From Motilimonas eburnea (lineage in GTDB: Bacteria; Pseudomonadota; Gammaproteobacteria; Enterobacterales; CBDFNC01), in the NCBI RefSeq assembly GCF_021295345.1, contig NZ_JAIMJB010000008.1, positions 62,001-126,000 of the forward strand: a DNA stretch of 64,000 bases, in the 5' to 3' direction. The notes under the pieces were generated by a model. The model worked only from the letters and a program-made list of their open reading frames with translations, did no database searches and was not told the DNA's origin. The position numbers and the translations under genes were made by a program. Positions within the stretch are counted from its first letter, which is position 1. Each line of letters starts with the position of its first letter. Positions 6,695-46,433 of this stretch are shown here, in pieces.

Positions 6695-7326
6695 TGGATT
6701 TGTCAGACGTATGCTGGGTTGTGCCATCCTCCCTATCAAAATCGCCGCTAACAGCACTGCATGAGCAATTCTCTAGCCGTTATCCCTGCGTTTTCATTCC
6801 TGTAGTTGATGAAGGGGGTTGGCTAAGTTATGGCCGAGCAAAATTTCAGTTGATCTCGTTTTGGAATAAGGCCATCTTATCGCCTTCAATGCACAACTGC
6901 TTTCGACTCAATGCGGCCCCAATAGCGTCTCAGCCTGACGATGAATTTTATTTATCGCCCCTCAAGGATTTATTTTTTCCCGGTAACTTTGCCATCGCTA
7001 AGTCCTGGCATTGTCCGACACCCACTTTTTCTGTCGGTGTCTTGATTACCTCCCCCGTCGAACAATGGCAATCACGCGCATTGAGGTTACTGTCCAATAA
7101 AGACAGCGTGCAACTTTATTGCCTTGATTACCACCGTCATCATATCTCGCCAGTCGTTGATGCTCGCCACTGGCAAACTTTTGATCTGCCTTGTACTGGC
7201 GACTTTGCCTCAGATGTCATTGCGCTGAGTTTTTATTGTCAGGCAATGATTGTCGTTGGTTTCATTGAACCTGAACTAGCCAATTTTCTAACGGATCAAG
7301 GCATCACCCTTCGCGTCATCCAATAG
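6694..7326 (+). CDS. Hypothetical protein at the end of the PRTRC operon
   Basis: This protein of 210 residues starts at an ATG overlapping the upstream stop, with GAGGG 8 bp before it. It contains many aromatic and Pro residues and no transmembrane segment or catalytic motif that I can identify. Position alone would make PRTRC-A a candidate, but the JAB metal-binding signature is absent: the His-rich stretch YHRHHISPVVD does not fit it. It ends 22 bp before the promoter of the giant methylase-helicase gene. Confidence 0.6.
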   Translation: MDLSDVCWVVPSSLSKSPLTALHEQFSSRYPCVFIPVVDEGGWLSYGRAKFQLISFWNKAILSPSMHNCFRLNAAPIASQPDDEFYLSPLKDLFFPGNFAIAKSWHCPTPTFSVGVLITSPVEQWQSRALRLLSNKDSVQLYCLDYHRHHISPVVDARHWQTFDLPCTGDFASDVIALSFYCQAMIVVGFIEPELANFLTDQGITLRVIQ

Positions 7327-42429: not shown

Positions 42430-42502
42430 AGCTACTACCAAATGTTGCCTGTCACCAGTTCAGTGGTGTCAGTTTAAATATCAATAATTAGGAGACATGA
42501 TA

Positions 42503-43006
42503 ATGAGATTACCTAAGCCAGTTATTCGCTTTGCTTCTTCATCAACCTCAATTCATGCCTTGGTTGCTAATTCCGGTTTTGGCAAAGAAGCATACCCTTG
42601 GACTAATCGTTTTATCGGTCGATTTCCATTACCTTCATGGCAACGGGAACTGGTTTGGTCGCAAGAACAAAAAATCTCTTTCATCGAGAGCGTCTTTATG
42701 GGGTATGACCTTGGTAGCGTGATGATTAATGACTATCTCGAAATGACCAATGGCACCATGAGTCCAATGAGTGACATTCTAATTGATGGCCAGCAACGCG
42801 TATCAGCTATCAATGATTTCATAACGGATCAGTTTCCTGTTAATGGTCTGTTCTGGAAGGATTTAACCAGAATTGAACGCCGTACCTTTCTTGAGCGTGA
42901 AATGGGTAAAAAGATGGTTTCATGTTTCGACGAAGATAAGCTCAAATTGGTATATAACCACCTAAACTTTTCCGGTGTAAGACATTCTCAAAGTGAGATG
43001 GCTTAA
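42503..43006 (+). CDS. DUF262/GmrS-like single-domain protein
   Basis: This protein of 167 residues matches the DUF262 (ParB-like) N-terminal domain of GmrSD-type enzymes: FPLPSWQRELVWSQEQKISFIESVFMGYDLGS, then LIDGQQRVSAINDFIT and a late YNHLNFSGVRHS. Full GmrS/GmrSD proteins are several hundred residues longer and have an HNH domain, which is missing here. DUF262 binds nucleotides in some restriction systems. The ATG at 42503 is chosen because AGGAG lies 8 bp before it. A stand-alone domain might be a decoy or an antagonist; this is speculation. Confidence 0.75.
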   Translation: MRLPKPVIRFASSSTSIHALVANSGFGKEAYPWTNRFIGRFPLPSWQRELVWSQEQKISFIESVFMGYDLGSVMINDYLEMTNGTMSPMSDILIDGQQRVSAINDFITDQFPVNGLFWKDLTRIERRTFLEREMGKKMVSCFDEDKLKLVYNHLNFSGVRHSQSEMA

Positions 43007-45005: not shown

Positions 45006-45033
45006 TTGCAAGTTTTATAAACTTTGCTATAGT
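45006..45033 (+). promoter_or_regulatory. Sigma70-like promoter of the CRISPR-like RNA
   Basis: TTGCAA (45006-45011), a 16-bp gap, then TATAGT (45028-45033). Transcription would start near 45040, nine bases before the first repeat. Confidence 0.65.
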
Positions 45034-45048
45034 GAAAATGTATAGAGA

Positions 45049-45136
45049 TATTACTGCTGAATAAGTAGCTGACCATAGAACGACACGAACTGATGTTGAA
45101 ATCTCTCAGACTACTGCCGAATAGGTAGTTTAATCA
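45049..45136 (+). CRISPR. Orphan repeat-spacer-repeat unit of type I-F geometry
   Basis: Two 28-nt repeats (45049-45076 and 45109-45136) enclose a 32-nt spacer (45077-45108), a 60-bp period as in type I-F arrays. Each repeat has a 5-bp stem and the 5-nt loop GAATA: CTGCT/AGTAG in the first, CTGCC/GGTAG in the second. The two changed bases pair with each other (U-A becomes C-G). The core ACTGCCGA-TAGGTAG is close to repeats I recall from Vibrio I-F3 systems. The 5' handle of the crRNA would be CTGACCAT. It has its own promoter and terminator, and no cas gene is in the window. Confidence 0.65.
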
Positions 45137-45140
45137 GACA

Positions 45141-45166
45141 AAAAGCCCGCACTTAAGCGGGCTTTT
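45141..45166 (+). terminator. Strong, bidirectional terminator after the CRISPR-like unit
   Basis: AAAAGCCCGC and GCGGGCTTTT form a perfect 10-bp stem around a 6-base loop, with A and T runs on the two sides. It serves the plus-strand RNA and the small minus-strand gene that ends at 45168. Confidence 0.9.
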
Positions 45167-45476: not shown

Positions 45477-46433
45477 TTACGCGTTTTTCGCGATAATTTC
45501 GCTGATAGCTAACTCGATTTCTTGCAGTGTTTCTTTGTCTAAACGGTTAAATTCAAAGCTGGTGAAGCGTCCTTTCACTTTCTTACGAGCAAACTGATCT
45601 TTATTTTTGAATTGCGCAAGTTCAGTCACCTTAGTTTTTATTGCCTTGGGCTTATCCAACAACAATTTACTGTGCTTGCCATAAAGCTTAATTAACTCGT
45701 CTTTTGCCTCGTCATTGGTTAGCTCATCGCTGAAGCTGTCCTTATCAACCATGACATGAGTTATCAGGTCGTCCAAGGTCACCCCTTTGGCCTGTAGTGC
45801 TTCTTGGATAGAGAGCAATTGTTTGTACTCATTATGTGACAACAAAGAGTAGTCCGGGAACACGCTGAGCATTTCCGATGGCACGCTGGCCGCTTGCAGT
45901 GCACGGGTCACTTTAGCCGCAGACAAACCGCGCTCTTGCGCGATTTCCTTTTGATTAAGGCCACTGTCTTTTAATGACATTAACTCTAACCCGAGTTCAC
46001 GCAGGTTATGCTCTTTGGCTGTTTGGATGTCACGGGCAAGCTGCTTAGCATCATCAGCAGAGATTTCTTCGTCAGCAACGAGGTAATCAAGCCCAACATG
46101 CTCAAGGATGGCTGCTTTTCTACGACGAGAGCCATCAAGGGTGTTGACTTTGCCATTGCTGGCCACAAAACCAATAGCCGGGAAGAATTGTTGTACTTTG
46201 ATAGTACGGCGAATGTCGAGCAATGACTCTGGTGTTAAGCCTGCTTGGTCACGGCCATTGGTTGAGGTTTCAACAAACGTCGAATCTTCCAGTTTATCCG
46301 CTTCAATATGCTGCTTTTTGAATGTGACTTTACGGCCTGATTTCAGGGTAAAGGTCACACCTTGTTCTGCAGTAGGGTCGCTAAATGTGGTCTTACCCAA
46401 GGTACGGCCAATTGTTGCTCTTTTTGCGGTCAT
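45477..46433 (-). CDS. parB: ParB partition protein (type Ia partner)
   Basis: This 318-residue protein has an N-terminal region with RRTIKVQQFFPAIGF, a ParB-type DGSRRRKAAILEHVG box (~105-120), and a central HTH (LNQKEIAQERGLSAAKVTRALQAA, ~170-195) like P1/F ParB. The C-terminal part is Lys-rich and probably dimerises. It is read 2 bp after parA, in the usual par order. The parS-like boxes lie just beyond its stop. It should bind parS and load on the nucleoid with ParA. Confidence 0.85.
   Translation of the reverse strand: MTAKRATIGRTLGKTTFSDPTAEQGVTFTLKSGRKVTFKKQHIEADKLEDSTFVETSTNGRDQAGLTPESLLDIRRTIKVQQFFPAIGFVASNGKVNTLDGSRRRKAAILEHVGLDYLVADEEISADDAKQLARDIQTAKEHNLRELGLELMSLKDSGLNQKEIAQERGLSAAKVTRALQAASVPSEMLSVFPDYSLLSHNEYKQLLSIQEALQAKGVTLDDLITHVMVDKDSFSDELTNDEAKDELIKLYGKHSKLLLDKPKAIKTKVTELAQFKNKDQFARKKVKGRFTSFEFNRLDKETLQEIELAISEIIAKNA

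Follow-up and report, generated by a model that had tools for sequence, protein, structure and literature searches.

The RNA gene and its plasmid

The window analysed here is a stretch of 64,000 nucleotides from Motilimonas eburnea, which contains a small orphan unit running from a promoter-like site through two type I-F-like repeats, designated R1 and R2, and the 32-nt segment between them to an intrinsic terminator (Table 1); this layout, given in a preliminary description of the locus, can be read directly at positions 45006-45166. The promoter-like site matches the consensus at 9 of 12 positions, and the TGC ahead of TATAGT constitutes an extended -10 element. The cores of the two repeats lie exactly 60 nt apart, and the repeats are identical at 18 of 28 positions over their full length and at 13 of 15 over the core. 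Transcription of the unit would produce an RNA of roughly 125 nt that carries two imitation I-F repeat hairpins.

Table 1. Coordinates of the RNA gene and of the neighbouring parB in the window
Feature	Position	Strand	Remarks
Promoter-like site TTGCAA-16-TATAGT	45006-45033	+	TTGCAA 45006-45011, TATAGT 45028-45033; consensus match only
Possible enclosing helix around R1, 5' strand AGAGAU	45044-45049	+	45049 is also the first base of R1
Repeat R1 TATTACTGCTGAATAAGTAGCTGACCAT	45049-45076	+	sequence reading, profile, fold
R1 core CTGCTGAATAAGTAG	45054-45068	+	
R1 8-nt handle CTGACCAT	45069-45076	+	
32-nt segment between R1 and R2	45077-45108	+	spacer in the preliminary description; target searches negative
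Possible enclosing helix, 3' strand AUCUCU	45101-45106	+	within the 32-nt segment; pairs with 45044-45049
Repeat R2 GACTACTGCCGAATAGGTAGTTTAATCA	45109-45136	+	
R2 core CTGCCGAATAGGTAG	45114-45128	+	
Intrinsic terminator	45141-45166	+	10-bp stem (10 pairs, 6 G-C)
parB	45477-46433	-	PF08775; plasmid backbone neighbour, outside the RNA gene

The window is part of a 211,353-bp contig whose 127-bp terminal overlap indicates that the plasmid is circular, with a length of about 211.2 kb. The plasmid initiator matches the RctB family and adjoins parA and parB, and the nearest relative of ParA is found in Motilimonas cestriensis (90% identity), in agreement with a Motilimonas host. From the rctB-like gene as far as the unit's terminator the backbone is kept in M. 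cestriensis (74% over 5 kb), and past that point it is divergent, the terminator being the end of a conserved parB-side block common to both; the related plasmid region of M. cestriensis does not contain the RNA unit itself. Elsewhere in the window, positions 42497-43006 encode a 169-aa stand-alone GmrSD N-terminal (DUF262) protein, whose domain occurs in several defence systems.

The lack of cas, tns and tniQ genes, which had been remarked on for the window, extends to the whole plasmid, where queries consisting of proteins encoded in the surroundings of I-F3 CASTs or of their repeats detected no Cas or Tns homologue and gave helicase-domain matches only, and neither Cas6f nor TniQ was found in the host assembly, which is 99.95% complete. 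The gene set by which an I-F CRISPR-Cas or I-F3 CAST locus is recognized (cas6f and effector genes, tniQ and tnsABC, nearby or in the cell) does not accompany the unit. One Motilimonas congener possesses a complete I-F1 system, its repeats numbering about 70, so that inhibitable hosts are present within the genus, and another has TniQ; no spacer of the Motilimonas I-F1 array matches the plasmid within 8 mismatches.

Statistical support and folding

R1 and R2 have the features of type I-F repeats, namely a length of 28 nt, a 5-bp stem of the CUGCC/GGCAG type, a 5-nt loop and a 60-nt period, and the earlier assignment of the hairpins to this type is borne out by sequence reading, folding and profile. 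When the 211-kb plasmid was scanned with a position matrix for which 22 other I-F repeats were used and the window repeats left out, the R1 and R2 pair scored 22.5 + 20.2 = 42.7 bits, compared to 23.5 bits for the best pair in 300 shuffles of the plasmid; the two repeats are the top two sites on the + strand, the third scoring 9.8 bits. A pattern derived from the unit, allowing 3 mismatches, matched 18 of 395 genomes of the same order (17 besides the genome of origin), while the reversed pattern used as a control matched none, and the sequences caught in this way resemble I-F arrays or CAST units. No Rfam family is matched by the unit. These results confirm that the RNA unit is real and not a product of chance.

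Folded singly, each repeat is predicted to form a 5-bp stem with a GAAUA loop. In the minimum-energy fold of the whole RNA the two hairpins are not formed, R1 pairing instead with the linker and R2, and the ensemble probability of the two hairpins in the whole RNA is about 0.5. At the inner stem pair R1 has U-A where R2 has C-G, a difference which the preliminary description interpreted as a compensatory change under selection for the fold; across 8 I-F3a-like repeats all 40 of 40 pair cells are standard and both partners of the inner pair are altered in 3, but this is a small test, and CAST repeats already show the U-A/C-G alternation. A 6-bp helix enclosing R1 (Table 1) is at most weakly suggested by the predicted pairing, since an equal helix arises in 918 of 20,000 shuffles and its ensemble probability is about 0.45; its 5' strand stops 4 nt ahead of the R1 core, as does that of two Vibrio relatives.

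Target searches and the 5' handle

No protospacer for the 32-nt segment was found in the host genome, in 395 genomes of the order (up to 3 mismatches, with every sixth base free), in plasmids and phages, or in viral contigs searched with exact patterns, and none was accepted in four Motilimonas genomes (the host and three congeners) when codon-wobble positions were left free. The absence of a protospacer match is common among real spacers and therefore constitutes weak evidence.

Several individual candidates were rejected. A site in mazG of Cronobacter phage CR5 shares 21 identical bp with the segment, but has 7 mismatches over the 32 nt, a disrupted PAM-proximal end and an E value of 0.3, and 77 mazG relatives give nothing better. 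An attachment target in yciA, prompted by the resemblance of the translated segment to YciA, was matched by 0 of 19 genes, and no yciA was detected within the genus Motilimonas at the threshold applied; no attachment site was found in the host with codon wobble allowed; and a 3-mismatch match in genome G002 is no better than chance and falls where no ORF of 100 aa is present.

More telling than the missing protospacer on the question of whether the segment is a spacer is the handle, which was compared with 171 locus-distinct array repeats. Position 5 is C in none of the 171, and position 6 is A in 168 and C in 3; the R1 handle has C at both positions, a combination found in 0 of 171, and the 8-nt 5' handle is not of the usual CUNAGAAA / CUGANAAN type; R1 is identical to CTGATAAT at 6 of 8 handle positions. 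The stem-base residues C6 and G20, on which Cas6f depends, are kept in both R1 and R2. In RacrIF1 the C6/G20 stem bases are needed and an altered handle still leaves substantial inhibition (PMC10651486), so an intact stem base combined with a deviant handle follows the pattern of an RNA anti-CRISPR, in which the stem is essential and the handle is dispensable. The segment is more likely to be a linker than a spacer.

Comparison with known I-F units

For the comparison of repeats, I-F1 and I-F3 loci were drawn from plasmids and genomes. GTAG stems like those of the unit typify I-F3a CASTs, for example the CAST adjoining guaC in genome G370, whose typical repeat has the same core as R2 and whose att-guide unit ends in a repeat with the same core as R1; the likeness to Vibrio I-F3 repeats noted in the preliminary description holds, Vibrio-type I-F3 CASTs having the closest cores. 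The GTAG stem is also present in some I-F1-like arrays (family f27), to which R2 is nearest over the full 28 nt, and the stems of R1 and R2 are closer to I-F3a than to the Motilimonas I-F1 repeat. Like the window unit, the att-guide units of I-F3a CASTs (at guaC in G370 and at folE in genome G050) have one 32-nt segment, a promoter near the first repeat and a diverged second repeat, and their spacers have 8 mismatches to guaC and 6 to folE, respectively. Unlike them, the window unit is without a transposon, Cascade, TniQ or a target found for it, and its handle is without the usual AA at positions 6-7. The G050 locus (L142:10997-11071 and 7065-7096) combines TnsABC with an atypical guide; the match of its spacer lies at the 3' end of folE, an attachment site beyond the four usually listed; no cas genes are present in the stretch examined, from tnsC to the next chromosomal gene.

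The mini-arrays of viruses and plasmids share with the window unit one spacer, two repeats and the absence of cas genes, but their repeats are identical to those of the host (PMC11656645, PMC9071438), whereas R1 differs from R2 and both differ from the I-F1 repeat of the congener. RacrIF1 and the solitary repeat units (PMC10651486) are likewise genes of mobile elements with their own promoter, a C6/G20 I-F hairpin and no cas genes, and that RacrIF1 does not need its handle for activity is a further likeness. The window unit has the hairpin by which Racr candidates are recognized (C6 and G20 at the stem base, no nearby cas), but differs from RacrIF1 in having two repeats exactly 60 nt apart rather than one, a stem with a G-U wobble and a GAATA loop. 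With two repeats it is not a solitary repeat unit, and its handle departs from that of a normal array, which sets it apart as a variant. The search for solitary repeat units drops hits with neighbouring repeats (PMC10651486), and the plasmid CRISPR survey left out two-repeat arrays (PMC9071438); the open-access literature yielded no account of I-F Racr RNAs that are structured or have more than one repeat. I-F3a-like cores with a handle gave 5 matches in viral contigs, none with a second repeat, a chance-like result that was set aside.

Orphan I-F hairpin RNAs on other plasmids

A BLAST search of plasmids with the unit, in which R1 matched at 25 of 27 positions (E 0.3), led to pAM7 of V. rotiferianus and pIFO15642 of V. 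penaeicida, and from these to a V. breoganii plasmid and to pMAO6 of Vibrio sp. MAO6, all of which carry orphan RNA genes (L345:3968-4095 in pAM7, NZ_AP019800; L346; L348:2503-2622, NZ_CP016179; L349:2490-2614, AP029601). These RNAs have three I-F hairpins and no nearby cas genes, and the hairpin spacings of 26/72, 24/66 and 26/73 nt indicate that they are not guide arrays. The first two hairpins are surrounded by a helix of 8-11 bp in which 6 of 11 pairs are altered on both sides among three sequences; only 1 of 500 shuffles is as good as the whole structure, the helix appears in the minimum-energy folds of the pAM7 and V. breoganii RNAs, and a further predicted helix may form a pseudoknot. 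The Vibrio RNAs are apparently an undescribed structured RNA gene of large plasmids.

The Vibrio RNAs resemble the window unit in being orphans, in their promoter-like DNA, in the CTGCTGAATAAGTAG core (CTACTGCATAAGTAG in V. breoganii) followed by a later CTGCCGAAYAGG core, and, in pAM7, pIFO15642 and V. breoganii, in a terminator with AAAGCCCG. They differ from it in having an additional first repeat, a long enclosing helix that covaries, and different spacings. Under a covariance model built on the Vibrio RNAs the window unit scores 25.7 bits, within the 25-39 bits of several real I-F arrays, and outside the cores the alignment similarity is no higher than that of shuffles; membership of the unit in the Vibrio family is thus unsupported, and homology beyond the hairpins is unproven. 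The preliminary description held that its account would fail if the inter-repeat segment proved as conserved as the repeats in related plasmids and the hairpins matched no I-F repeat. In three Vibrio plasmids the segment is indeed conserved, with covarying pairs, and hence is no spacer there; but homology of these to the window segment is not demonstrable, and the hairpins do match I-F repeats.

In pIFO15640 of V. penaeicida (NZ_AP025146; L344:1580-1585, L347 near 47885) the third repeat of the RNA gene is interrupted by an I-F3 CAST of about 58 kb, which sits exactly within it and is accompanied by a 5-bp duplication CCTGC. None of the three CAST spacers matches the insertion site, and insertion guided by the RNA gene itself was rejected: the site lies about 47 nt past a 32-nt stretch after the first repeat, a coincidence which several repeats and distances make easy by chance.

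A contig of Shewanella sp. (NZ_CANLKR010000009; L204:5319-5345) with related parAB has a single I-F3-like repeat, after which comes a terminator-like hairpin. The repeat lies about 0.85 kb downstream of parB, from which one ORF separates it, and scores 32.5 bits, the next best site in 1.9 Mb scoring 15.0. Two P. aeruginosa plasmids (CP075774, L350:1004-1064; NZ_CP129996, L351:1504-1565) carry a pair of identical I-F hairpins, at a distance of 46 or 47 nt from each other, together with a terminator. This unit lies a few hundred bases upstream of acrF1 and is likely to be a two-repeat RNA anti-CRISPR beside a protein anti-CRISPR. The Vibrio, Shewanella and Pseudomonas units indicate that plasmids keep I-F hairpin RNAs that are unable to act as guide arrays. 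A decayed repeat and terminator remnant also lies by parAB in V. alginolyticus pL289 (L353 near 2001-2052) and in many similar Vibrio plasmids of 260-300 kb. The core spacings of 60, 66 and 72 (and 73) nt in the window unit and the Vibrio RNAs are near multiples of 6 nt, the step of the Cas7f filament, which may be a matter of chance.

Discussion

The explanation which we favour, with a probability of about one half, is that the unit encodes a two-repeat, Racr-like RNA decoy, which may derive from the guide unit of a CAST. The argument is built on the intact stems, the deviant handle, the missing partners and analogy. On entering a recipient cell with a type I-F system, either the host's own I-F1 system or an I-F3 CAST, the latter having the most similar repeats, the RNA would meet Cas6f, which would bind and cut the R1 and R2 hairpins; the wrong 5' handle of the product would then prevent the formation of a working Cascade, and Cas6f and Cas7f would be tied up. 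The exact 60-nt geometry suggests that the decoy may have originated as a one-spacer guide unit. Of the functions proposed earlier (borrowing a host I-F system, RNA anti-CRISPR, guidance of a CAST elsewhere), the RNA anti-CRISPR fits best, and those that involve a guide are weakened by the lack of a protospacer, the handle, and the absence of a CAST or Cas6f from the cell. Also in favour of a decoy are the score of 42.7 bits where shuffles reach no more than 23.5, the combination of an assembly without Cas6f or TniQ with a congener that has an I-F1 system, and the lack of a protospacer together with the non-array orphan hairpin RNAs of other plasmids. Against it count the spacing of exactly 60 nt, which is a requirement for guides and differs from the 46, 66, 72 or 73 nt of other orphan units, the restriction of known Racr candidates to single repeats, the unproven homology to the Vibrio RNAs (25.7 bits, in the range of arrays), the stems nearer to I-F3a than to the Motilimonas I-F1 repeat, and the frequency with which real spacers have no known protospacer.

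The main rival is a true one-spacer guide, processed by an I-F effector supplied in trans (an I-F3 CAST or a host I-F1 system) and directed to, for example, a rival plasmid or the attachment site of another host. The exact period and 32-nt spacer length, the cores shared with the G370 CAST repeat and with its last att-guide repeat, the anatomy common to att-guide units and the 6 of 8 handle positions shared with CTGATAAT all agree with such a guide; it is nevertheless a doubtful proposition, if one to be taken seriously, because the host has no effector, handle positions 5-6 are unlike those of all 171 array repeats, and no protospacer was found in any of the sequences searched, even with wobble positions free in the four Motilimonas genomes. 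That the unit has no present function and is what decay has left of a CAST guide unit or CRISPR array would explain the drift of its outer arms and handles and its absence from the related M. cestriensis region, but is improbable given that both stems, the promoter and the terminator are intact, the stem change is compensatory, and the plasmid has no tns or cas fragments. Very improbable is an unrelated plasmid small RNA, regulating copy number, partition or parB, with an accidental I-F resemblance: the unit adjoins parB and its terminator region is common with the parB side, but an independent profile scores it far above shuffles, and its pattern recurs in 18 of 395 genomes of the order with none for the reversed control.

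A bolder extension of the decoy, which we consider rather unlikely, is that RNA decoys of large plasmids are tuned to I-F3 CASTs, whereby the plasmid escapes guide-directed insertion, the decoy acting as an RNA anti-CAST. The window unit, its cores being identical to those of an I-F3a CAST, would be one example; the CAST in pIFO15640 lies inside a repeat of such an RNA gene.

Two-repeat units such as this one fall between the published surveys (PMC9071438, PMC10651486). If the unit is instead a guide, it would be a CAST-type guide carried separately from its machinery. If it is a decoy, then RNA-based CRISPR evasion by plasmids is not confined to the single-repeat Racr but extends to further forms, among them structured RNAs whose helices covary, and its targets may include the CRISPR-guided transposons for which plasmids serve as vehicles.
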